From Bacteroidota bacterium (lineage in GTDB: Bacteria > Bacteroidota > Ignavibacteria > Ignavibacteriales > Ignavibacteriaceae): 45,929 bases of DNA. The translations under genes and the position numbers were made by a program. Of the stretch, positions 17,917-30,046 are shown in pieces. How positions within the stretch are numbered: position 1 is the first letter of the stretch; the number at the start of each line of letters is the position of its first letter. The notes beneath the pieces are model-generated. The model was not told where the DNA came from. It did no database searches and was given only the letters and a program-made list of their open reading frames with translations. The stretch lies in assembly GCA_023475265.1 (NCBI GenBank), contig JAMCWE010000030.1:1-45929 (forward strand). Direction: 5' to 3'.

Positions 17917-17931
17917 GCGTGGTTGATTAGA

Positions 17932-17967
17932 AATTCAAATTAAAAAGTATTTTCTCTAATTTGAATT
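17932..17967. repeat. 11-bp inverted repeat between tRNA-Arg(UCG) and tadA
   Basis: AATTCAAATTA at 17932-17942 is perfectly complementary to TAATTTGAATT at 17957-17967, with a 14-base loop. On the minus strand it lies about 50 bases after the tRNA 3' end and just before the tadA start. It could be a weak terminator or processing hairpin for the tRNA transcript, or part of the tadA leader. No long T-run follows it. Confidence 0.45.
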
Positions 17968-18016
17968 CTGGTTTCCTTATCATTCATAATCAATTGTGAA
18001 TTTAGAATTGTTTTAG

Positions 18017-18090
18017 TACGCCCAGAAGGATTCGAACCCTCAACCCTCAGATCCGAAGTCTGATGCTCTATCCAGTTGAGCTATGGGCGC
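18017..18090 (-). tRNA. tRNA-Arg (anticodon UCG)
   Basis: Read on the minus strand, a 74-base cloverleaf runs from GCGCCCA (acceptor, 18090 down) to TGGGCGT plus discriminator A at 18017. The D arm contains AGCTCAACTGGATAGAGC. The anticodon arm is TCAGA, loop CTTCGGA, TCTGA, giving anticodon TCG. The T arm is GAGGG-TTCGAAT-CCTTC with one G-T pair. The first acceptor pair is G-T. CCA is not encoded. It reads CGA and probably CGG. Confidence 0.93.
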
Positions 18091-18462
18091 ATAATTATTA
18101 AGGAATAAAAAACTAAGTATAAAAACAATAATTAAAAATCAAAGTTATTTTAAAATTTGTTTCATTTCTTCTCAACAAAAATACTATTGATATTCTCTAG
18201 AATCAATTTTGAGTTTGAATGTTGTGTAAATTAAATTTTATTAACTCATTAAATTTTATTACTTATTATAAATTATTTGAAGAATAAATATGTTGGGGCT
18301 TAATTAATCGATGGTAATTGAGAAAAGCTAATTTAGTCATGTGAAAAAATTATTTGAAAGAAATATATTATATTTATTACAAAGAATTTCTATTCATGGT
18401 CTTTATTTGAAATTCAAAAATATTTTTAATATAAAAAGCTTAATACAGATTTAATTGGGGTT
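18091..18462. other. Intergenic region before the sensory block, no gene recognised
   Basis: About 370 AT-rich bases between the leftward tRNA-Arg(UCG) and the rightward small ORF. It must hold divergent promoters for both units, but I see no clear consensus pair, no riboswitch-like structure and no credible ORF. Confidence 0.5.
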
Positions 18463-18467
18463 GGAGG
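18463..18467 (+). promoter_or_regulatory. Strong ribosome-binding site deciding the start of the small ORF
   Basis: GGAGG at 18463-18467 lies five bases before the ATG at 18473. It is among the best Shine-Dalgarno matches in the window and is the main reason to take the following 59-codon ORF seriously. Confidence 0.6.
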
Positions 18468-18472
18468 TATTT

Positions 18473-18652
18473 ATGTTATCCTCTAAGATATTATCGGTAT
18501 TATTTCTAAATCAAAAATCCTATCTAGTAATTCTAAATCAATTTTATTCTGATATTAATTATCGCGCTAATAAACCAAATTATTTCCAATTTGAATTATT
18601 AATAAATGAAGATTGTGATAAAATCTTCATATCAAAGCGGAGATATAAATAA
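18473..18652 (+). CDS. Small hypothetical protein coupled to the NarL-type kinase
   Basis: This 59-codon ORF is preceded by GGAGG with ideal spacing. Its stop TAA at 18650-18652 shares its last base with the ATG of the histidine kinase (TAATG), a typical translational-coupling arrangement. The product (MLSSKILSVLFLNQ, then a polar part ending KIFISKRRYK) has no recognisable domain; the N-terminal third is hydrophobic but too short to be a convincing membrane helix. The kinase also has its own GGAG at 18639-18642 inside this ORF, so the ORF may act as a leader or upstream regulatory ORF rather than make a functional protein. An in-frame TTG at 18455 would add six residues. Reality as a protein is uncertain. 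Confidence 0.45.
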   Translation: MLSSKILSVLFLNQKSYLVILNQFYSDINYRANKPNYFQFELLINEDCDKIFISKRRYK

Positions 18653-20130
18653 TGCAAAAGATAGAATTTAAAATCGAAGACCAATTATTTAAAAAGATTT
18701 TTAATGAAATTCCTGATCCGGCATCGCTTTGGTATAGAACAGATGAAGGCAGGATAATATTGGCTATGACAAATCAAGCTGCATTAGAAACCTCTAACGG
18801 TAGAATTAGTGAATTCATAGGTTATTCAGTTGAAGAATTCTATTTAGATAATATTCAGGTTATAAAGACAATAATTCAAGTAATAGGAACCGGAAAGAAT
18901 ATAAGAATTGAATTAAGAATTAAGCTGAGAACAACAGGCGAGTGGAAATGGTTTTTATCAGACTACGTTAAGGTTGATAATAGTTATGTATTGAACATTG
19001 CAAAAGATATAACTGATAGGAAGAATGTTGAAAAGGCTTTATCGGAAAGTGAAGAAAGATTTAGAATATTAGTTGAACAATCACCGGATGGAATTGGAAT
19101 AATTCAAGATGGAGTAATAAATTTTATAAATAAAGCTACAGTAAAAATGCTTCGCGCAAAAAATGAAACAGAAATAATTGGGCATTCTTTTACTGAATTT
19201 GTACAAAAGGATTCATTCGAAGAAATTAAGAAATATTATTTAAGAGTGAGTTCGGAATCTACTCCGCAGACAATTGAAATTAGATTTAAAACAATAGTAG
19301 GGAAAATATTTTTCGTTGAAATAATATCAAAAAAAATTATTTATAAAGGGAGAGAAGCAATTCAATTCATTATCCGAGATATAACAAAACGGGTTGCTAC
19401 AGAAATACAACTCCGTAATCTGACAACAAGGTTGAGATCCTTAACAACACATATCCAGACTTTAGTAGAAGAAGAAAAAATAAAAATTGCCAGAGAAATT
19501 CATGACGAACTAGCCCAAGCACTGACTGGATTAAAAATTGATTTAACTTTTTTACAAGAAATGAGCGAGGAAAATATAGATAAGAACCAAATAAAGATTA
19601 AGATAAAGTCTATGATCGAATTAATTGATACAACTATCAAAACTGTAAGAAGAATATCAACAGAATTACGTCCGATAATATTGGATAAGTTAGGGCTTAT
19701 TGCAGCAATAGAATGGCTGGTGGAGGATATTCAAAAAAGAACAAGTATTAAATTCCAATGTTCATTGCCAAAAGAAGTATTCACTCTTGATGAAAAACTT
19801 TCTACTGCTTTATTCAGAATATTTCAAGAGTCGATTACAAATATACTTCGTCATTCTTTTGCAACTAAAGTTAATATTTCTATGCTGATAGAAAATTACT
19901 GTTTACATTTGAAGATCAGAGATAATGGTATCGGAATTGAACAAGAAAATATTGATAATATTAATTCACTGGGAATATTCGGAATGAAAGAGCGAGTAAG
20001 AGAATTAAAAGGATCAATTAAAATAAATGGTAAAAAGGGAATGGGGACTTTAGTTATGATAGAAATTCCTTTAGAAAAAAATCAATTAAAAAAGGGCAGA
20101 AAAAATGATCAACATATTAATTGCGGATGA
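18652..20130 (+). CDS. PAS-PAS sensor histidine kinase, NarX/DegS type
   Basis: This 492-residue kinase has no membrane segment and is probably cytoplasmic. Residues about 10-120 and 130-250 are PAS domains, each closed by the usual DITDRK/DITKR linker. The dimerisation domain is HisKA_3 type: IAREIHDELAQALTGLKIDL with the phosphorylated His at 284. The ATPase region carries ESITNILRHS (N box), DNGIGI (G1) and LGIFGMKERV (G2). Such kinases phosphorylate NarL/FixJ regulators, and exactly such a regulator follows, overlapping by 26 bases. The ligand of the PAS domains is unknown; no heme or flavin motif is evident. It starts in a TAATG overlap with the small ORF upstream. Confidence 0.9.
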   Translation: MQKIEFKIEDQLFKKIFNEIPDPASLWYRTDEGRIILAMTNQAALETSNGRISEFIGYSVEEFYLDNIQVIKTIIQVIGTGKNIRIELRIKLRTTGEWKWFLSDYVKVDNSYVLNIAKDITDRKNVEKALSESEERFRILVEQSPDGIGIIQDGVINFINKATVKMLRAKNETEIIGHSFTEFVQKDSFEEIKKYYLRVSSESTPQTIEIRFKTIVGKIFFVEIISKKIIYKGREAIQFIIRDITKRVATEIQLRNLTTRLRSLTTHIQTLVEEEKIKIAREIHDELAQALTGLKIDLTFLQEMSEENIDKNQIKIKIKSMIELIDTTIKTVRRISTELRPIILDKLGLIAAIEWLVEDIQKRTSIKFQCSLPKEVFTLDEKLSTALFRIFQESITNILRHSFATKVNISMLIENYCLHLKIRDNGIGIEQENIDNINSLGIFGMKERVRELKGSIKINGKKGMGTLVMIEIPLEKNQLKKGRKNDQHINCG

Positions 20131-20734
20131 CCACCCGGTAGTAAGGGAAGGCATCAAACAGATAATTGCTAAATCAAAAGATATGACGGTGACAGCGGAA
20201 GCCTCTAATGGCCAGGAAGTAATTGAAAAGATATGCAAGTATAATTTTGACGTAATTATTTTGGATATTGCGATGCCTGGGAGAGACGGCTTTGAAGTAA
20301 TAAAAGAATTAAAAAGAATGAAACCGAAAATTGCGATATTAGTTTTAAGCATATATCCTGAGGATCAAATTGGAATAAGAGTTTTAGAAAACGGAGCTTC
20401 AGGTTATTTGAATAAAGAAAGTGCACCTTCCGAATTAATAAACGCAATAATTAAGATACATAATGGGCGAAAATATATTAGTTCAAATCTTGTCGAATCG
20501 TTAGCATCACGTGTTATGATCAGCAAGAAACCTCTGCTTCACGAAAATCTTTCGAATAGAGAATACCAAATACTTTGTTTAATAGCTTCGGGAAAAGACC
20601 CAAAAGAAATTGCTGATCGACTTTCAATCAGCATTAAATCAGTACGCACTTACCGCGAAAGGATACATCAAAAGCTAATGGTGAAAAATGATGTTGAATT
20701 AACTCATTATGCAATTCAGAATAAAATTATTTAA
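20105..20734 (+). CDS. NarL/FixJ-family response regulator
   Basis: The 209-residue protein has an N-terminal receiver (acid pair Asp8-Asp9, phosphorylation site Asp54 in ILDIAMPG, conserved Lys in GYLNKES near 104) and a C-terminal LuxR-type helix-turn-helix (LSNREYQILCLIASGKDPKEIADRLSIS, broken here, then IKSVRTYRERIHQKL). It overlaps the kinase gene by 26 bases, so the pair is a cognate two-component system with high likelihood. It is the only DNA-binding output protein in the 18-32 kb sensory block. A perfect palindrome of the LuxR-regulator kind lies 167 bases after its stop, upstream of the next receiver gene, and is a possible target. Confidence 0.93.
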   Translation: MINILIADDHPVVREGIKQIIAKSKDMTVTAEASNGQEVIEKICKYNFDVIILDIAMPGRDGFEVIKELKRMKPKIAILVLSIYPEDQIGIRVLENGASGYLNKESAPSELINAIIKIHNGRKYISSNLVESLASRVMISKKPLLHENLSNREYQILCLIASGKDPKEIADRLSISIKSVRTYRERIHQKLMVKNDVELTHYAIQNKII

Positions 20735-20900
20735 TCTTTGTTCTATTGCTGAACTGTTTAATTGTTAAATTGTTTTTTAATTCCATTGAATTATAATTGT
20801 CCTTCCTTCCAAAAAAAACTAAAATTTTAACATCGAATAAAAGAATCATTAAAGGGATTTTAAATTAATTATTAAGAAATTTAAGTGAAATTATTTTTAT

Positions 20901-20916
20901 GTAGTCCTAAGACTAC
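20901..20916. promoter_or_regulatory. Palindromic candidate operator GTAGTC-CTAA-GACTAC
   Basis: GTAGTC at 20901-20906 and GACTAC at 20911-20916 form a perfect inverted repeat around CTAA, 75 bases before the start of the lone receiver gene. GC-containing symmetric hexamers stand out in this AT-rich gap. The size and spacing fit a dimeric response-regulator site, and the NarL-family regulator encoded just upstream is the obvious candidate. A small RNA hairpin is the alternative, but no T-run follows. Confidence 0.45.
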
Positions 20917-20991
20917 AAAACAAGTGGTTTTTTGCTAATTGATTATCAATTTCTATTTAGATAATTAGTTATTGAATTTAATAGAATCAAA

Positions 20992-21375
20992 ATGAAACCT
21001 CTAAACATTCTTATTGTCGATGATTCGGAAATTATACGTGACCGGATTGCAGAAAAACTCCGGCAATTTGGTGATGCAATAAAGATCTTGCAGGCAGATA
21101 ATTACAGTCTTGCGTTAAAACTGTTTATTTCTTCGCCGCCAGAGATAATAATATTAGACATTCAACTGCCAGATGGGGATGGAATGGATCTTTTGAATAT
21201 TATTAAAACAATAGCCCCGTCCACTCATGTAATTATTTTAACAAATTATCCGTTTGCTGTATTTAAGGAACATTGTGCCAAATGTGGAGCCGAATTTTTT
21301 TTTGATAAGTCGAACGATTTTGAAAAACTACAATATGCAGTTAATCAAATTTGTACAAGTGATTCAATCAATTAA
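20992..21375 (+). CDS. Stand-alone receiver-domain response regulator
   Basis: This 127-residue CheY-like protein is a receiver only. It has Asp10-Asp11 (VDDSE), phosphorylation site Asp56 (ILDIQLPDGDG), Thr in ILTNYP near 85, and a conserved Lys in FFDKSNDFE near 105. The EHCAKCGAEFFF segment has a C-x2-C pair, seen in a group of such receivers. There is no output domain, so it must act by protein contact or as a phosphate relay or sink. It lies 11 bases before the large membrane kinase and is probably the first gene of a second transcription unit, after a 257-base gap containing the palindrome. Confidence 0.88.
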   Translation: MKPLNILIVDDSEIIRDRIAEKLRQFGDAIKILQADNYSLALKLFISSPPEIIILDIQLPDGDGMDLLNIIKTIAPSTHVIILTNYPFAVFKEHCAKCGAEFFFDKSNDFEKLQYAVNQICTSDSIN

Positions 21376-21386
21376 ACGAGATTAGA

Positions 21387-24300
21387 ATGAATTCTTCTAA
21401 CATCAATGATTCAATGCAAAAAAAGGAATTATTAAAAACACTTTTCATTACGATGGTTCTCGTTTTTTTAGGTATGAATGTATTCCAATTCTTGAAATTA
21501 TATCTTGATCCGCGTATAGATGTAGCTCTGTCCAATATTATTACAAATGTTTTTAATACAATAGTTGCTGTAATAGCTGCATATTTTATTTACAAAAAAC
21601 AATTCAATATAAATCAACTATTAATGAAAGAAATTGTCATAAGGAAAATTACAGAAGACAAATTAAGTCATATCAATAAACTTTATTCTGTATTAAGCAA
21701 TATAAATCAGGCGATTGTTCATATTAAAGAGAAAGAAAGATTATTAGAAGAAATCTGCAGGATTATTGTGGAACAAGGAAAATTCAAGTTAGCCTGGATA
21801 GGATTAGTTGATGAAGAAAATAATTTTATAAAACCCTATGCGTATTACGGTATTATTGACGGTTATCTTGATGATATAAAAATTTCTTTAAGCGATGACA
21901 AATTAAATAAAGGTCCAACTGCAAAAGCGATATTAAGCGGAAAATATTTTGTATGCAACGATATTGAAAATGATCCGCGGATGAAACAATGGAAAGAAAA
22001 AATTCTTAAACTGGGTTTCAAGTCATCTGCGGCTTTTGCATTCAATACTGAAGGTAAAGTAATAGGTTCATTAAATGTTTATATAGATAAACCGAATTAC
22101 TTTAATGAAGAGGAAATAAAACTATTAAATGAAATTAGATTTGATATTACTTATGCACTGGATGCAATTGAATCAGAAAGAAAAAAGAAAAAAGCTGAGA
22201 TAGAAATTAAAGAAGAAAGATTAAGATTCAATAATATTTTGGAAACATTACCGGCATCTGTTGTTTTATTAACCCCGGATTACCATGTAAGTTTTGCAAA
22301 CCGTTTTTTCCGCGAACGCTTTGGCGACGGAGATGGTAAGTGCTGTTACGAGTTTCTTTTCGACCGTTCGGAACCTTGTGAAAATTGTGAGACATATACA
22401 GTATTAAAAACAGGAAAGCGTCATGAATGGGAATGGTTGGGGCCGGACGGAAGAAATTATTTCATTAACGATTTTCCTTTTACAGATACCGATGGTTCGC
22501 CTCTGATTATTGAAATGGGAATTGATATTACGGAAAGGAGGCAAGCAGAAGAAGCCTTACAAAAAAGTGAACAACTACATATCGAAGCTCAAAAAATTGC
22601 GCACATCGGACACTGGCGGCTTGATTTGACTTGTAATAAACTAACATGGTCAGATGAAGTCTATATTATTTTTGGAATTCAACCGCAATCCTTTGATGGA
22701 ACTCTGGAAGTATTTTTAAATTATGTTCATCCAAATGATAGAGAATATGTTGCCAGTGAATATAAGGAATCTGTAGATAATAAAACTTTTTATAATATTG
22801 ATCATAGAATTATTAGACCAAATGGTGAAGTAAGATTCGTTCATGAACAATGTCATACTTATTATGATGACAATAGTTTACCATTGTACTCAGTCGGAAC
22901 AGTTCAAGATATTACAGAACGAAAAGAAGCGGAAGAAAAAGCTTTAGAAGCAAATCAACTTTACAGAATTGTTTTTGAAAATAGCTTAGACGGCTTAATG
23001 CTTACAGATCCAGACGGAAGAATATTTGACGTTAATCCTGCGGCAGAAAAAATCTTAGATTACACTCAAGATGAAATTAGAAAAATTGGGAGATCTGGAA
23101 TATTAGATACAACCGATCCACGTTTGCCTGAGTTCCTGGAAAGGAGAATTAAAAACGGTTTTGCTTTAAGTGAATTGATTTTAATTCGAAAAGACGGAAT
23201 TAAAATACCTGTAGATGTGTCTTCAAGAATTTTTTATGATAAAAATGGAGAGATGCGTACAAGCCTCTCCATTCGAGATATTTCCGAACGCAAGCAAGCG
23301 GAGGCAGCGCTAACAAAGCAGTTGCATTTTTCACGTGCAATTAACCAAATTGCTGAGGCCATAATTACACGGGAGAATTCAGAATCAATATTGCAAGCAA
23401 TAACAGATTTTATTGGTATAACTTTAGAGGTTGACCGGTCTTTAATCTATTTCATTTCATTTGAAAAAGAAGAGATTGAAGGTTTAACAGAATGGTTAAA
23501 TCCCAATTCAACTGGTATAACACCTACAAAGGCGACCTATCCAATTAATATATTCATCAGCAGCGCTACCGAAATGAACAAAACCAAGAATTGGTTAGAA
23601 AGTCATTTCGATGATATGAATTTCATGTTAATTGAAGATGGTTCTGCGCAAATTTTGCATGAACAAATGCAAATTAAAAGTTTACTTTGGTTTCCATTTT
23701 TATTTAATCGCGATAGCTTCTATTTAATTGTTTTAAATCATATTCAACATCGTCATATCTGGAAAACCGAAGAATTAGATTTTCTTGAAACCATAAGCAG
23801 GCTTGTAAGTATTGCCTTGATAAAAATTGAAATATTAAAAAAGCGGAAAGAGTATCAAGAAAAATTATTGGCGGTATCCAATTACACAAGGAATTTAATT
23901 GAGGTCAGTCTCGATCCGCTTGTTACAATAAGTGCCGAAGGAAAAATTACCGATGTAAACAAAGCTACTGAAAAAGCCACAGGCATGCCCAGAGAACAAT
24001 TAATTGGAAGTAATTTTTCTGATTATTTTACTGAACCGCAAAAAGCCAACGAAGGTTACCAGAAAGTACTTAAAGATGGTTTTGTTGTGGATTATCCTTT
24101 AATAATTCAGCATATATCTGGTAGATCAACACCGGTTTTGTATAACGCTACAGTTTATAGAGATGAAATGGGAGAAATACAAGGTGTGTTTGCAGCAGCA
24201 AGAGATATTACAAAATTAAAAGATTCAGAAGAAGAAATTCAAAAGATATTAAATGATCTTCGACGTTCTAATCAAGAGCTGGAACAATTCGCATATATAG

Positions 24301-24953
24301 CTTCGCATGATCTCCAGGAGCCGTTAAGAATGATATCGAGCTATACTCAATTATTAGCAAACCGGTACAAAGGCAAATTAGATTCCGACGCCGATGACTT
24401 TATTAATTTTACTGTTGACGGAGCGAACAGGCTACAGGCTTTAATACAAAGCTTGCTGGCTTATTCACGAGTAGATAGAAAAATAAAACCGTTTGAAATA
24501 ATTAATTGTAATTCAGTAATGAAACAAGTTCTTGATAATTTGAAAACTACAATAGCTGAAAATCAAGCTGTTGTCGTTTCTGAAAAGCTGCCGGTAATTT
24601 TAGGAGACGAGCTTCAGCTAATTCAATTGTTCCAAAACTTAATCGGTAATGCAATAAAATTCTGCGGAAAGAATATTCCTCAAATAAAAATTTCAGTAAA
24701 AGAGAATTTGGACGATTGGGAATTTAGCATACAGGATAACGGTATAGGAATAGACTCCCAATATTTTGAAAGAATATTTGTAATCTTCCAACGGCTTCAT
24801 CCAAGGGAAGACTACAAGGGCGTTGGAATGGGCCTGGCTATTGCAAAAAAGATAGTTGAAAAGCATGGCGGAAAAATTTGGGTTGATTCGGAGATCGGCA
24901 AAGGTTCTACTTTTTATTTCACTATTCCTAAAATAAAGGATAAAGATGAATAA
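21387..24953 (+). CDS. Membrane sensor histidine kinase, GAF-PAS3-GAF-PAS-HisKA-HATPase
   Basis: The 1188-residue kinase begins with two membrane helices (about residues 16-37 and 49-70) with no sizeable periplasmic loop. Then follow a GAF domain (about 95-265), a PAS domain with CYEFLFDRSEPCENC (about 285-390), a PAS_3 domain (about 398-520), a further PAS (about 525-640), a second GAF (about 645-820), and a PAS (about 831-950). The kinase core has FAYIASHDLQEPLR with His974, NLIGNAIKF near 1083, DNGIGID near 1116 and GVGMGLAIAKKIV. This HisKA type is shared with Cph1-like kinases, which pair with Rcp1-like receivers, and such a receiver overlaps by eight bases. No PHY domain or bilin-binding Cys motif is evident, so light sensing is not claimed. 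Confidence 0.9.
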   Translation: MNSSNINDSMQKKELLKTLFITMVLVFLGMNVFQFLKLYLDPRIDVALSNIITNVFNTIVAVIAAYFIYKKQFNINQLLMKEIVIRKITEDKLSHINKLYSVLSNINQAIVHIKEKERLLEEICRIIVEQGKFKLAWIGLVDEENNFIKPYAYYGIIDGYLDDIKISLSDDKLNKGPTAKAILSGKYFVCNDIENDPRMKQWKEKILKLGFKSSAAFAFNTEGKVIGSLNVYIDKPNYFNEEEIKLLNEIRFDITYALDAIESERKKKKAEIEIKEERLRFNNILETLPASVVLLTPDYHVSFANRFFRERFGDGDGKCCYEFLFDRSEPCENCETYTVLKTGKRHEWEWLGPDGRNYFINDFPFTDTDGSPLIIEMGIDITERRQAEEALQKSEQLHIEAQKIAHIGHWRLDLTCNKLTWSDEVYIIFGIQPQSFDGTLEVFLNYVHPNDREYVASEYKESVDNKTFYNIDHRIIRPNGEVRFVHEQCHTYYDDNSLPLYSVGTVQDITERKEAEEKALEANQLYRIVFENSLDGLMLTDPDGRIFDVNPAAEKILDYTQDEIRKIGRSGILDTTDPRLPEFLERRIKNGFALSELILIRKDGIKIPVDVSSRIFYDKNGEMRTSLSIRDISERKQAEAALTKQLHFSRAINQIAEAIITRENSESILQAITDFIGITLEVDRSLIYFISFEKEEIEGLTEWLNPNSTGITPTKATYPINIFISSATEMNKTKNWLESHFDDMNFMLIEDGSAQILHEQMQIKSLLWFPFLFNRDSFYLIVLNHIQHRHIWKTEELDFLETISRLVSIALIKIEILKKRKEYQEKLLAVSNYTRNLIEVSLDPLVTISAEGKITDVNKATEKATGMPREQLIGSNFSDYFTEPQKANEGYQKVLKDGFVVDYPLIIQHISGRSTPVLYNATVYRDEMGEIQGVFAAARDITKLKDSEEEIQKILNDLRRSNQELEQFAYIASHDLQEPLRMISSYTQLLANRYKGKLDSDADDFINFTVDGANRLQALIQSLLAYSRVDRKIKPFEIINCNSVMKQVLDNLKTTIAENQAVVVSEKLPVILGDELQLIQLFQNLIGNAIKFCGKNIPQIKISVKENLDDWEFSIQDNGIGIDSQYFERIFVIFQRLHPREDYKGVGMGLAIAKKIVEKHGGKIWVDSEIGKGSTFYFTIPKIKDKDE

Positions 24954-25398
24954 TTTATTTGGAAGACCGGTTCGAATTCTTCTTGTTGAAGATAATCTTG
25001 CCGATATAAGATTGACAAAAGAAGTATTTAAAACAAGTAAGGTATTAAATGAAATAGAGATTGCAAACGATGGTGTGGAAGCGATAAATTATTTAAAAAA
25101 AACCGGAAAGTATGAATCAAATAAAACACCGGATTTGATTTTACTTGATTTAAATCTACCTAAAAAAGACGGAAGAGAAGTTCTTGCTGAAATAAAATCT
25201 GATTTGAACTTGAGAAAAATACCAATCATAATTTTAACTATATCTAAAGATGAAGAGGATATTTTAAAATCATATAGCCTATATGCTAATTGTTATATTA
25301 CTAAACCAATAAACCTTGAGCAGTTCAATAATGTAATTAAAAGTATAGAAGATTTTTGGTTCACAATAGTTAAGCTTCCATCTGATTATATAAACTGA
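24946..25398 (+). CDS. Rcp1-like single-domain response regulator
   Basis: The 150-residue receiver has LLVEDNLADIRL at the N-terminus with Asp16, phosphorylation site Asp68 (LLDLNLPKKDG), Thr in ILTISKDEEDI and Lys in YITKPINLEQF near 120. The insertion before the phosphorylation site and the C-terminal helix ending in IEDFWFTIVKLP mark the Rcp1 subfamily, which partners Cph1-like kinases in cyanobacteria. It overlaps the preceding kinase by eight bases, and a second Rcp1-like gene follows the next kinase. It has no output domain. Confidence 0.9.
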   Translation: MNNLFGRPVRILLVEDNLADIRLTKEVFKTSKVLNEIEIANDGVEAINYLKKTGKYESNKTPDLILLDLNLPKKDGREVLAEIKSDLNLRKIPIIILTISKDEEDILKSYSLYANCYITKPINLEQFNNVIKSIEDFWFTIVKLPSDYIN

Positions 25399-25429
25399 AA
25401 ATATTTTCAACAATCTAATAACATAAAAT

Positions 25430-27226
25430 ATGTTTGAACAATTACAAATATTATTGGTTGAAGACAGTCCAGGGGACGCCCGGCTAATAGAAGAGATGTT
25501 AAAGGAATCGCACATTGCAGAATTCAAAATTAAGAAAGCAAAGCTTAAATCAGAGGCATTTGAGCTGTTAAAAAATTATTCATTTGATGCAATACTTCTT
25601 GATTTAAATTTACCTGACAGTTATGGAATCGAAACGTGTACAACTTTCGTTAGAGAATATCCTCAAATTCCTATTGTTGTTTTAACGGGAAATGAAAGCG
25701 AACAGATAGGTGAAGAAGCTTTGATGCTTGGAGCTCAGGATTATTTAATTAAAGGGCAGATTGATAATCGGCCGCTTGCAAGGGCTTTAAGGTTCAGCAT
25801 AGAAAGATTCAGGATACAAAAAAGATTGCAGAATAGTGAAACTCGTTTTAGAATAATGATTGAAAAAAATGATGACAGCATAATTATAACCGATAAAGGC
25901 GGAATAATTAAATTTGTCAATCCGGCAGCAGAAAAATTATTTAACAAGTCAAAAGAAAAATTATTAGGTGAAAAATTCGAATACCCGATTACTGAAGAAA
26001 AGCCATATGAAATATTAATTACAAGAAATCATGATGATAAAAGATATGCAGATATGAGAATAGTAGAAATTGAATGGGAAAATGTTCCAATGAATTTACT
26101 TACGCTTCATGATATTACTGAAAGAAAAACTGCAGAAAATTTATTAAGAGAAAGCGAAGAAAGATTTAGGTTGATTTCTGAAAATTCCTTGGATTTGATC
26201 AGCATGGTTAACGAAAACGGATATTTTGTTTATGCCAGTCCTTCTTTTGAAACGCTGCTTGAATATCCAACAAGAGAGCTTTATAAAAAAAGATTATTCG
26301 ATTTGATTAACAAAGAAGATCTTGAAAAAATTCCCAATTGGAAAAATAAGTTACAGTCTAAATTCAGAATTATTGATGCAAAGGGATTTTGGCGCTGGAT
26401 GGAAGGATCAAGCTATACTATTTTGTGGAAGCATCAAACTTTTATTATCTCTGTTTGCCGGGACATAACTGAAAGAATTATTGCCGATAATGAAATTAAA
26501 AAACTTAATGCCGAACTGGAACAGAGAGTAGTTCAGCGGACAGCAGAATTAGAAGCCGCCAATAAAGAATTAGAATCTTTTAGTTTTTCGGTTTCTCATG
26601 ACCTTCGCGCACCATTAAGATCTATAGATGGTTTTAGCAAAATATTGTTGGAAGATTATAAAGATAAATTAGATTCTTTCGGGCAGGATTATCTAAACCG
26701 TGTAAGACACGCTACCATTCGAATGTCCAATCTTATTGACGATTTTTTGAAACTATCAAGAATTACTAGAATTGAATTAACCAGAACAAACGTTAACTTA
26801 AGTCAAATTGCTCTCGACTATCTGAATGAACAGAGAAAAATTAATCCGGAAAGAAATGTAAAATTTATTGTTTCACCGGACATTTATGTTTACGCAGATA
26901 GTCAGCTTATGAAAATATTAATGGAAAACTTACTTGGTAATTCATGGAAATTTACTAGAAATCATGGGGAGGCAGTAATTGAAATCGGATCTTATGAAAA
27001 TAAAGACGGTAAAATATTTTTTATTAAAGATGACGGAGCTGGATTTGATATGGCAAATGCCGGAAAATTATTTACACCGTTTGAACGACTGCATTCTTCC
27101 AGTGAATACGAGGGAACAGGTATTGGATTGGCAACAGTTCATAGAATTATTGCCAGGCACGGAGGAAGAATATGGGCAGAAGGGGAAATAGAAAAAGGAG
27201 CCAAATTTAGTTTTATTTTGCCATGA
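25430..27226 (+). CDS. Receiver-PAS-PAS histidine kinase
   Basis: This 598-residue cytoplasmic kinase has an N-terminal receiver (LLVEDSPGDARL, Asp58 in ILLDLNLPD, Lys in YLIKGQ near 108), two PAS domains (about 140-240 and 245-355), a short coiled coil (LNAELEQRVVQRTAELEAAN), HisKA with FSVSHDLRAPLRSIDGF and His390, and an ATPase domain with NLLGNSWKF, DDGAGFD and GTGIGLATVHRII. The N-terminal receiver makes it a kinase that can itself be phosphorylated, for example by the kinase upstream, and then control its own activity. It starts 31 bases after the Rcp1-like gene and is followed by another such receiver. The PAS ligands are unknown. Confidence 0.92.
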   Translation: MFEQLQILLVEDSPGDARLIEEMLKESHIAEFKIKKAKLKSEAFELLKNYSFDAILLDLNLPDSYGIETCTTFVREYPQIPIVVLTGNESEQIGEEALMLGAQDYLIKGQIDNRPLARALRFSIERFRIQKRLQNSETRFRIMIEKNDDSIIITDKGGIIKFVNPAAEKLFNKSKEKLLGEKFEYPITEEKPYEILITRNHDDKRYADMRIVEIEWENVPMNLLTLHDITERKTAENLLRESEERFRLISENSLDLISMVNENGYFVYASPSFETLLEYPTRELYKKRLFDLINKEDLEKIPNWKNKLQSKFRIIDAKGFWRWMEGSSYTILWKHQTFIISVCRDITERIIADNEIKKLNAELEQRVVQRTAELEAANKELESFSFSVSHDLRAPLRSIDGFSKILLEDYKDKLDSFGQDYLNRVRHATIRMSNLIDDFLKLSRITRIELTRTNVNLSQIALDYLNEQRKINPERNVKFIVSPDIYVYADSQLMKILMENLLGNSWKFTRNHGEAVIEIGSYENKDGKIFFIKDDGAGFDMANAGKLFTPFERLHSSSEYEGTGIGLATVHRIIARHGGRIWAEGEIEKGAKFSFILP

Positions 27227-27239
27227 TGAGGAGGAAAAG

Positions 27240-27683
27240 ATGTTTACAAAATCTATTTTACTTGTAGAAGATAATCCGGATGATGAAGCATTAGCATTAC
27301 GAGCTTTTGGCAGTAGTAACTTCCCGCATCCATTAAGAGTTGTGCATGACGGGAAAGAAGCGATCGATTATTTATTATGTACAGGCGGGTTTTCAAATAG
27401 AAACCCAAATGAAATGCCCGCATTAATTATGCTTGATTTGAAATTACCAAAAGTAGCAGGGTTAAAAGTATTGCAGGTTGTTCGCACGCACGAAAGAACC
27501 AAATTGGTGCCGGTGGTAATATTAACTTCTTCAAAGGAAGAAAAGGATGTTTTGAATGCTTATTCTCTAGGAGCTAATAGCTATATCAGAAAACCTATTC
27601 GATTTGAAGAATTTGTCGATACAATAAAAGAGATTGGTAAATATTGGCTGCGGTTAAATGAACTACCACAAAATTTAGGATAA
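27240..27683 (+). CDS. Rcp1-like single-domain response regulator (second copy)
   Basis: The 147-residue receiver has LLVEDNPDDEALALRAF, phosphorylation site Asp66 (IMLDLKLPKVAG), Thr-Ser in ILTSSKEEKDV, and Lys in SYIRKPIRFEEF. Its C-terminus, IGKYWLRLNELP, is the Rcp1-type helix also seen in the other copy. The two copies are clearly diverged, so this is not a recent duplication. A strong GAGGAGGA at 27228-27235 precedes the ATG. It lies 13 bases after the REC-PAS-PAS kinase and two bases before the next hybrid kinase, so it could receive phosphate from either. Confidence 0.92.
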   Translation: MFTKSILLVEDNPDDEALALRAFGSSNFPHPLRVVHDGKEAIDYLLCTGGFSNRNPNEMPALIMLDLKLPKVAGLKVLQVVRTHERTKLVPVVILTSSKEEKDVLNAYSLGANSYIRKPIRFEEFVDTIKEIGKYWLRLNELPQNLG

Positions 27684-27685
27684 AT

Positions 27686-30046
27686 ATGAACACCAAAATA
27701 AATATTCTTGTAATTGAAGACAGCAATGATGATGCTTTACTAGTTCTCAGAGAAATACAAAAAGCAAATTATATAATCAATAACGAGATAGTTGCGTCCG
27801 CTGATTTATTAAAAGAATCGCTTAAAAAAATAAATTGGGATATAGTTGTATCAGACTATGTTATGCCGGGTTTTTCAGGTTTAGATGCTTTAAAGATCGT
27901 AAGAGAATTTGATGAAGACCTTCCGTTTATAATTGTTTCAGGTACAATTGGAGAATCAATTGCGGTTGATGCTATGAGGTCAGGGGCTAATGATTATGTA
28001 ATGAAGAATAGTTTGGCAAGGCTTGTTCCTGCTATTAAACGTGAGCTTCGAGAGGCAGTTATTCGCAGAGAAAGAAAAATCGCAAAAGATAAATTGAAAG
28101 AAAGCGAAGAATTATACAGAGCACTTGTTGAAACTTCACCGGAAGCTATTGTTTTGATAGACGCCTGCGGCAATATATTATTCAGCAATAAACAAGGCGC
28201 AAATTTAATAGGAGAAAAATATGTGCATAATCTAAAAAACAGAAATGTATTTGAATTTATTTTCCCCGAAGATTTAGAAAAAGCGAATTCAAATTTAATA
28301 AGGGCAAATGAGGGAGATGTGATTGATGATCAAGAAATCCGATTGATGCGTGCAGATAAAAATATTATTTACACTGAAATTCGAGTAGCACCATTATTAG
28401 ATAGTTCAGGAAAACCAAAATTTCTTATTTTTATGATAATTGATGTAACAAAGAAAATAGAAGGAATAAAAAAAAGGTTAAAATCAGAAGCGGAATTTCG
28501 ATCAGTCTGGGAAAATTCTTTTGATGCAATGAGGTTATGCGATGAAAACGGAATTATAGTAAGAGTTAACCGTGCGTTTTGCAAAATGATGAATAGGACA
28601 AGAGAGGAATTAGAGGGTAAGAGATTTGACGTAATATATAATTCTGAGAATGATCATGAATCTCTTGAAAAATATAAATATATATTTCATAACCATACTG
28701 TACAGCCAAAATTAGAAACGGAAATAAATTTAATAGATAAAAAAAAGATATGGGTCGAATTATCAAATTCATATATTGAAATTAAAGGACAGCCGACACT
28801 ACTGCTTAGTATATTTAGAGATATAAGCGAAAGAAAAAATTATGAAAACAGTTTGATTATTGCTAAAGAAAAAGCAGAAGAAATGAACCGCATGAAGAGT
28901 AACTTTATGAACAACATGAGCCACGAAATTAGAACTCCGATGGTAGCTATTTTGGGGTATGCTCAGCTTGTATTAGATGAATTAGAAAATGCAGACCCAT
29001 ATCTTTTTTTGAAAGGAATTGTTAGTTCAGGCAGAAGATTAATGGAAACAATAAATTCAATTTTAGATTTATCAAGAATTGAATCCGGAAAGATAGAATT
29101 AAAATTTAAAAAAATTAATTTAGTTTCAGAGTCAAAGGAAATAATAGAGAGGTTATCAATATTAGCAGAACAAAAAGGTTTATATATAAAATTTTCAGCT
29201 CGTGAAGATTCAATTTTATCGCTGCTTGATTCAAATCTTTACGATCAAATCGTTGAAAACCTAATTGGAAATGCTATCAAATATACTGAGAAAGGCGGGA
29301 TAATTGTTGAAATAACAAAAAACTATATTGAAGAAGAAAATTGGTCTGTATTAAATATAATTGATACAGGTATTGGAATACCGAAAGAAAGTCTTGAAAT
29401 AATATTTGAAGAATTCAGGCAAGTGAGTGAAGGCATTGGAAGGAGATTTGAGGGAAGCGGATTGGGTTTAACCATAACAAAAAAATATGTTGAAATGATG
29501 CATGGTAAAATATCCGTTGAAAGCAGATTCGGCAGGGGATCGGTTTTTTCAGTTAGATTTAAATCGTGCTTACCGGATGAAATAGAATTTGAATCTAAAA
29601 TATTTCAAAAGGAATTTCCGAAAACAATAATTGGGAAGGAAGGAAATATTAAACCAAATCTTGCCCGCCTTCTTTTAGTTGAGAATGATTCAGGATCAAT
29701 AAATATTACACGAAGATTTTTAAAAGGCTTATATGAACTAGATTGTGTCGAAAAAGGTGAAGATGCAATTGAATTGGTTAAAAACAAAAAATACGATTTA
29801 ATATTAATGGACATAAATCTTGGCTATGGAAAAAGCGGAGTTGAAACAACATTAGAAATTAAAAACATCAGCGGATATGAAAATATTCCGATTGTTGCAT
29901 TAACAGCTTATGCGATGCATAGCGATAAGGAATATTTTTTATCTATAGGGTTAACACATTATTTAGCCAAGCCGTTTGAAAAAAGCGATTTGATTAATCT
30001 TATTGAACAAATTTTACACTCATCAAACAAAGATAAATTAATTTAG
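27686..30046 (+). CDS. Hybrid histidine kinase: receiver-PAS-PAS-HisKA-HATPase-receiver
   Basis: The 786-residue protein has an N-terminal receiver (VIEDSNDDALLV, Asp57 in VVSDYVMPG), two PAS domains (about 150-270 and 275-390), a HisKA domain with FMNNMSHEIRTPMVAILGY and His413, an ATPase domain (NLIGNAIKYTEKG, DTGIGIPKESL, GSGLGLTITKKYVEMM) and a C-terminal receiver (LLLVENDSGSINITRRF, Asp709 in LILMDINLG, Lys in YLAKPFEKSDL). Receivers at both ends allow it to take in and pass on phosphate. A His-phosphotransfer protein would be expected for onward relay, but none is encoded here. It starts two bases after the Rcp1-like gene and ends the run. Confidence 0.93.
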   Translation: MNTKINILVIEDSNDDALLVLREIQKANYIINNEIVASADLLKESLKKINWDIVVSDYVMPGFSGLDALKIVREFDEDLPFIIVSGTIGESIAVDAMRSGANDYVMKNSLARLVPAIKRELREAVIRRERKIAKDKLKESEELYRALVETSPEAIVLIDACGNILFSNKQGANLIGEKYVHNLKNRNVFEFIFPEDLEKANSNLIRANEGDVIDDQEIRLMRADKNIIYTEIRVAPLLDSSGKPKFLIFMIIDVTKKIEGIKKRLKSEAEFRSVWENSFDAMRLCDENGIIVRVNRAFCKMMNRTREELEGKRFDVIYNSENDHESLEKYKYIFHNHTVQPKLETEINLIDKKKIWVELSNSYIEIKGQPTLLLSIFRDISERKNYENSLIIAKEKAEEMNRMKSNFMNNMSHEIRTPMVAILGYAQLVLDELENADPYLFLKGIVSSGRRLMETINSILDLSRIESGKIELKFKKINLVSESKEIIERLSILAEQKGLYIKFSAREDSILSLLDSNLYDQIVENLIGNAIKYTEKGGIIVEITKNYIEEENWSVLNIIDTGIGIPKESLEIIFEEFRQVSEGIGRRFEGSGLGLTITKKYVEMMHGKISVESRFGRGSVFSVRFKSCLPDEIEFESKIFQKEFPKTIIGKEGNIKPNLARLLLVENDSGSINITRRFLKGLYELDCVEKGEDAIELVKNKKYDLILMDINLGYGKSGVETTLEIKNISGYENIPIVALTAYAMHSDKEYFLSIGLTHYLAKPFEKSDLINLIEQILHSSNKDKLI

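Follow-up and report, generated by a model that had tools for sequence, protein, structure and literature searches.

Does the short inverted repeat that lies between a two-component pair and a long run of receiver and kinase genes serve as the operator by which the former controls the latter? The window, by which we mean the whole 45,929-nucleotide stretch of DNA that was analysed, carries on its forward strand a gene for a histidine kinase with PAS, HisKA_3 and HATPase_c domains (HK1, 18652–20130), whose frame overlaps that of a NarL-family response regulator made up of a receiver and a GerE/LuxR helix-turn-helix (20105–20734). Beyond a gap holding the palindrome GTAGTC-CTAA-GACTAC (20901–20916, forward strand), a single-domain receiver gene, sREC (20992–21375), is presumed to be the first gene of the controlled operon. 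It is followed on the same strand by a multi-PAS/GAF histidine kinase (HK2, 21387–24953), a single-domain receiver (24946–25398), a receiver-PAS-histidine kinase (25430–27226), another single-domain receiver (27240–27683) and a receiver-PAS-histidine kinase-receiver hybrid (27686–30046). Since the successive spacings from sREC to the hybrid kinase are 11, −8 (an overlap), 31, 13 and 2 bases, these genes probably form one operon. A tRNA gene detected with Rfam is located at 18017–18090 on the reverse strand, between a tadA-like gene and HK1, and the signalling block starts just after it; by eye, the same tRNA sequence is contained in the gap of a second genome of the same genus (G004).

The palindrome was present exactly where the initial annotation had placed it, and its arms were longer than claimed, extending to 7+7 (TGTAGTC-CTAA-GACTACA, 20900–20917), with a conserved A-rich right flank that reaches 20920. 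The distance of 75 bases to the ATG of sREC was likewise correct, whereas the stop codon of NarL is 166 bases away and not 167. The further claim that such a repeat is unusual for an AT-rich gap did not hold: when the 257-base gap was randomised with a first-order Markov model, 12.4% of 1000 randomised gaps contained a 6+6 inverted repeat of equal quality (loop of 0–8 bases, at least four G/C). The window as a whole contains 25 perfect 6-4-6 palindromes, seven of them with at least four G/C among the 12 arm bases, and matches to the motif at up to three mismatches numbered 5 against 4.85 expected. As the bare palindrome is within chance, the case for it must rest on comparison between genomes, and its significance comes from conservation, not from palindromicity.

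Within its own genome the motif stands alone. A genome-wide search for further copies, which had been proposed as a check, returned GTAGTCNNNNGACTAC as a single exact copy, with no second one in 4.77 Mb; one more copy at one mismatch (C102:34970) lies within an open reading frame (L002). At zero or one mismatch, TAGTCNNNNGACTACAAA matched the palindrome alone, on its two strands. The regulator is local in this genome, with one such site. A large regulon in this genome was considered and found no support, with 26 matches to TAGTCNNNNGACTACAAA at up to two mismatches against 65 for the reversed control. No autoregulatory site before HK1 was found in the window, where the best near-match to TAGTCNNNNGACTA in 17917–18651 has two mismatches; the best in the gap before HK1 of G004 has three.

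When 31 genomes were searched with sREC, the arrangement of histidine kinase, NarL, gap and sREC proved to recur in the order. The gap comparison covered the window and 23 further loci (three gaps being too long to view), and among these 24 gaps the palindrome element was shared by the window, G004 and three genomes from other families (G021, G022 and G026). In a pattern scan, TAGTCnnnnGACTACAAA was present in 9 of 164 genomes of the order. Eight of these nine are the genomes with the eight best NarL matches, scoring 437 to 248 bits, with the next match in the same 164 genomes at 232 bits; the ninth, G478, has its copy within an open reading frame. The site is therefore conserved with, and only with, its orthologous regulator, as expected for an operator: it was found in 8/8 genomes with a close NarL orthologue, representing three families, and in 1/156 others, there as the open reading frame copy (Fisher p ~8e-13, which is no true probability, as the genomes are related). 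A reversed control pattern likewise occurred in 9 of 164 genomes, so that the bare genome count is not above chance; the weight rests on the coincidence with NarL and on position, not on the number of genomes. In seven of the eight orthologue genomes, the arrangement in the window included, the site is located in the gap that separates NarL from sREC; the exception is G490, where it lies ahead of sREC and the NarL gene is on a different contig. Across nine aligned sites the columns for T at −1, TAGTC and GACTACA are identical in 9/9. The left arm reads ATAGTC in G022 and G026, and three of the nine sites are imperfect palindromes. Conservation in orthologous gaps had been named beforehand as the test that could overturn the proposal, and the motif passed it in all eight orthologue genomes.

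The regulators that accompany the site are themselves distinct. When 37 NarL proteins were placed in a tree, those of the eight site-bearing genomes formed one clade with a support of 96/95. All eight combine Arg181 with Asp or Glu at residue 185 of the recognition helix, a combination seen in 0/29 of the others, among which there is one Arg181 (L012, paired with Ala185) and no Asp/Glu185. In the window, this signature (Arg181 and Glu185 at the ends of residues 181–185) is encoded at 20645–20659 on the forward strand. The counterparts of the two positions in E. coli NarL are presumably Lys188 and Lys192.

The conserved sequence extends well beyond the palindrome. In an ungapped nine-site alignment anchored on the palindrome, from which a second site in G026 was left out as its spacing differs, 38 of 200 columns were identical in at least 7/9 sites, compared with a mean of 4.0 and a maximum of 12 after shuffling; here and in the dyad offset scan described below, the shuffles keep base composition only. 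Fifteen bases after the palindrome lies a clade-specific element of the form TTGCYAATT (TTGCTAATT, 20932–20940, forward strand), found at the same spacing in eight sites from 7/8 site-bearing genomes at up to three mismatches, against two matches for a reversed control, and present in 1/69 other NarL loci. It would span approximately −42 to −34; one possibility is that it represents a −33 variant, another that a second factor binds there. A general promoter class of the form TTGCCAATT-N21-TAnnTTTA was not supported: over eight genomes and at up to two mismatches it matched 402 times, and its reversed control 343 times.

A predicted −7 box, TAATTAGT (20962–20969, forward strand), starts 45 bases after the palindrome. 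At exactly this distance, TAnnT is found in 8/9 aligned sites and in 0/2000 shuffles, and the longer TAnnTT in 6/9; G473 is the exception, with neither TTGCCAATT nor a box at the standard offset. The window box is a weak form of the TAnnTTTG consensus. In Flavobacterium psychrophilum the −7 box spans −12 to −5 (PMC9723704). If TAnnT is read as a −7 box with this span, the centre of the palindrome would fall at about −65.5, and transcription of the operon would begin near 20974 on the forward strand, 18 bases before the ATG of sREC. The predicted position near −65 is one at which NarL-type regulators can activate; E. coli NarL does so with a single site at some promoters, the known centres being −67.5, −77.5 and −44.5 (PMC7419079). 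An activator site upstream, at a defined distance from the elements bound by polymerase, is the layout of a class I promoter, and the counts agree with it (TAnnT at 45 bases in 8 of 9 sites, TAnnTT at 45 bases in 17 of 27 dyads associated with other NarL clades).

We read the palindrome as the NarL operator in the promoter of the sREC relay operon, acting through phosphorylation of NarL by HK1, dimer binding and class I activation, and we assign this reading a probability of roughly three in four. HK1 would phosphorylate the adjacent NarL regulator, and a NarL dimer would then occupy GTAGTC-N4-GACTAC, its two recognition helices (Arg181, Glu185) taking one half-site each. Centred some 65 bases before the start, NarL would be placed as an upstream (class I) activator that recruits polymerase to the sREC promoter, and higher expression of sREC and the five receiver and kinase genes behind it would yield more relay proteins. 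The basis is computed: the site, an inverted repeat upstream of a predicted promoter and next to a NarL-family regulator as expected of an operator, the fact that this site is conserved and occurs together with one NarL clade, the helix residues of that clade and the fixed distance to TAnnT. Points against the reading are the weak window box, the exceptional G473, the imperfect palindromes, the separate contigs of site and NarL gene in G490, and the other NarL loci that have no dyad of this plan or no box at 45 bases. From this basis we infer binding, phosphorylation by HK1, activation over repression, the transcription start and co-transcription of the operon. On these sequence grounds, the earlier proposal that the NarL-type pair controls the relay operon is supported, and a palindrome spotted by eye becomes a predicted operator with a named regulator, transcription start and operon.

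The alternative that survives best keeps the same NarL and the same site and assumes repression or dual action, which we consider unlikely. The second site in G026, situated between HK1 and an HDOD gene, is by eye flanked on neither side by a box at the standard offset, suggesting that the site may also work otherwise. However, a centre near −65, upstream of the box and at a distance that is constant in the aligned sites and in most of the dyads of other clades, fits activation better than occlusion, and the weak window box fits a promoter in need of an activator. A second site is also present in G022, with a box at the standard offset, and faces a gene for a likely outer-membrane barrel (26.2 bits, under the Pfam cut-off of 28.7).

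It is considerably less probable that the palindrome is bound by another regulator, for instance an ArsR-family repressor. This possibility is raised by a near-identical core, TAGTCATTTGACTACAAA, in four genomes from other families in the phylum, with the adjacent gene of ArsR type by eye in three of the four loci, and by an ArsR/DUF2087 gene in G022 two genes from the second site. Against it, the site accompanies NarL orthologues in 8/9 genomes within the order, and there is no ArsR protein among the eight window proteins scanned (18652–30046). A phylum-wide scan found the pattern in 7 of 395 genomes, fewer than the reversed control (~21 genomes): the site-bearing G000 and G021, the four with identical TAGTCATTTGACTACAAA, and G197, where the copy lies between other genes. 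The TAGTCATTTGACTACAAA loci lie outside the order; at L036, L037 and L042 an ArsR-type gene stands beside the core and is followed by an SRPBCC-type gene (by eye), and L041 is the fourth locus. An unrelated repressor, having converged on the same core, probably uses TAGTCATTTGACTACAAA as its operator in these four loci.

Action of the palindrome as RNA, either as a leader hairpin or as a terminator of the HK1-NarL transcript, was rejected and appears very improbable. Although a 7-pair stem is possible in the window and one of 13 pairs in G004, covariation was not above that of shuffles, six of the 11 pairs show no variation at all, and in 3/9 sites a pair of the core is disrupted. A G+C-rich hairpin followed by a T run, as in an intrinsic terminator, was found nowhere in 20700–21050, the gap has no Rfam match, and the predicted transcription start is downstream of the palindrome. 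A chance palindrome with no function, which the frequency of equally good repeats in randomised gaps would allow, is next to negligible given that sequence, place and spacing are conserved in three families of the order.

With the palindrome read as a NarL operator, the genes under its putative control can be compared between genomes. In all eight, sREC is the first gene behind the site and the later genes differ. The relay operon follows in this genome and in G004, with proteins 64–98% identical. G500, G021 and G473 have three efflux genes there, for an outer-membrane efflux protein, an adaptor of HlyD type and a pump of AcrB type; G490 has the first two of these and an unscanned 1041-aa open reading frame that runs off the contig; and G022 and G026 have a DUF116 gene. 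For this genome and G004, the suggestion that the site links both halves of the block is the likeliest reading; in the six others the site precedes other cargo. At L110, L112, L113 and L117, a lone receiver gene heads an RND efflux operon behind the conserved site (the L112 pump being unscanned). The comparison suggests that one signalling pair controls a second, larger relay, and that the same switch stands before efflux pumps in relatives.

Gaps after other NarL clades contain different dyads with a common plan, GTAR-N8/9-YTAC. The pattern was picked by eye on a first set and then tested on a held-out set. It occurred in 8/17 gaps of the discovery set, from which five gaps of site-bearing loci and three gaps over 450 bases had been left out. 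The held-out set comprised 40 NarL loci, 29 of which were kept (11 had no following open reading frame or a gap outside 60–450 bases); here the dyad was present in 9/12 gaps before receiver-like genes and 10/17 before others, with ~0.3 expected in each group. Altogether, the 69 NarL loci outside the site-bearing clade comprise 35 with the dyad within 420 bases after NarL and 34 without it. In the paralogous HK-NarL-sREC locus of the genome to which the window belongs (L014, C209), the 420 bases next to NarL contain no such dyad. Behind four related NarL genes (L118, L120, L121 and L122) lies a frame that by eye resembles a lipoprotein with a trypsin-like protease motif.

The box recurs at the same distance after these dyads. 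Of the 35, 27 were kept as symmetric, eight with fewer than two of three inner matches being left out. TAnnTT at exactly 45 bases was found after 17 of the 27 (3/7 in the first set and 14/20 in the held-out set), compared with 5 at the next best offset and an average maximum of 2.8 after shuffling; ten have no box at 45. Over all 35 dyads, TAnnTT is at 45 bases in 20, and at 44 and 46 together in one. The box of L184, TAAGTTTG, is close to TAnnTTTG. The offset was first seen in the site-bearing set, and a later scan, open to all offsets, ranked 45 top. Because it equals the offset of the site-bearing clade, it lends support from other clades, although the members of a clade are related.

Half-site letters and spacer length vary with the recognition helix. 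Tyr181/Asn185 NarLs go with a left half of GTAACA in 7/11, GTAATA in three and GTAGTA in one, and with a spacer of 5 bases in 11/11; for Asn181/Ser185, the spacer is 4 bases in 4/5 and the halves are mostly GTAGTA-like; for Ser181, the half-sites are mixed. Spacer agreement inside residue-181 classes was 0.71 against 0.54 after shuffling, with 6/2000 shuffles as high. Apart from the mixed Ser181 class, a change of operator thus accompanies a change of recognition helix. A NarL clade with Tyr181/Asn185 (L170, L171, L172, L173, L178, L180, L182, L188, L189, L194 and L200) precedes genes that by eye resemble glutamate dehydrogenase or an ammonium transporter, and a GTAR-N9-YTAC dyad is present in the gap of 8/11 of these loci; its NarL is possibly a nitrogen-control regulator.

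We lean towards the view that many NarL-type regulators in the order are portable switch cassettes, each consisting of a kinase, a regulator and a promoter whose grammar is fixed (GTAR-N8/9-YTAC, 45 bases, TAnnTT) and which drives whichever operon adjoins it, the letters inside the half-sites and the spacer of 4 or 5 bases varying with the recognition helix. If this is true, DNA recognition by dozens of uncharacterised regulators in the order would follow a code that can be read, and the window would be one case of such a cassette, with a multi-kinase relay as its cargo. The dyad-box grammar would then offer a route to the targets of many unstudied NarL-type regulators in the order.

Among known systems, the 7-2-7 consensus of E. 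coli NarL is TACYNMT-N2-AKNRGTA, with half-sites that start with TAC and end with GTA. The window dyad differs from it in its 6-4-6 geometry and in its opposite polarity, GTA...TAC, and the palindrome was rejected as a site of this type. ComA of Bacillus is likewise a NarL-family response regulator. The consensus of its box is TTGCGGNNNNCCGCAA, and the palindrome shares with this NarL-family operator the 6-4-6 inverted-repeat geometry (PMC3793909); the half-site and the bacteria differ. With E. coli NarL sites, such as those of the ogt promoter, it has in common an inverted repeat and a similar position, activation being possible there from a site centred at −67.5, against an inferred −65.5 here (PMC7419079). 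The TAnnTT found 45 bases after the dyads comes close, in some loci, to the TAnnTTTG −7 box of Bacteroidota sigma-A promoters (PMC9723704); in the window, TAATTAGT matches that box weakly and the start is predicted. In the literature searched, we found no description of such a site, or of NarL-type sites in Ignavibacterium or Melioribacter, and no match to the motif in five literal spellings, most subscription journals being outside the coverage. The geometry of the predicted operator is of a known type, and the promoter grammar that surrounds it is unusually clear.
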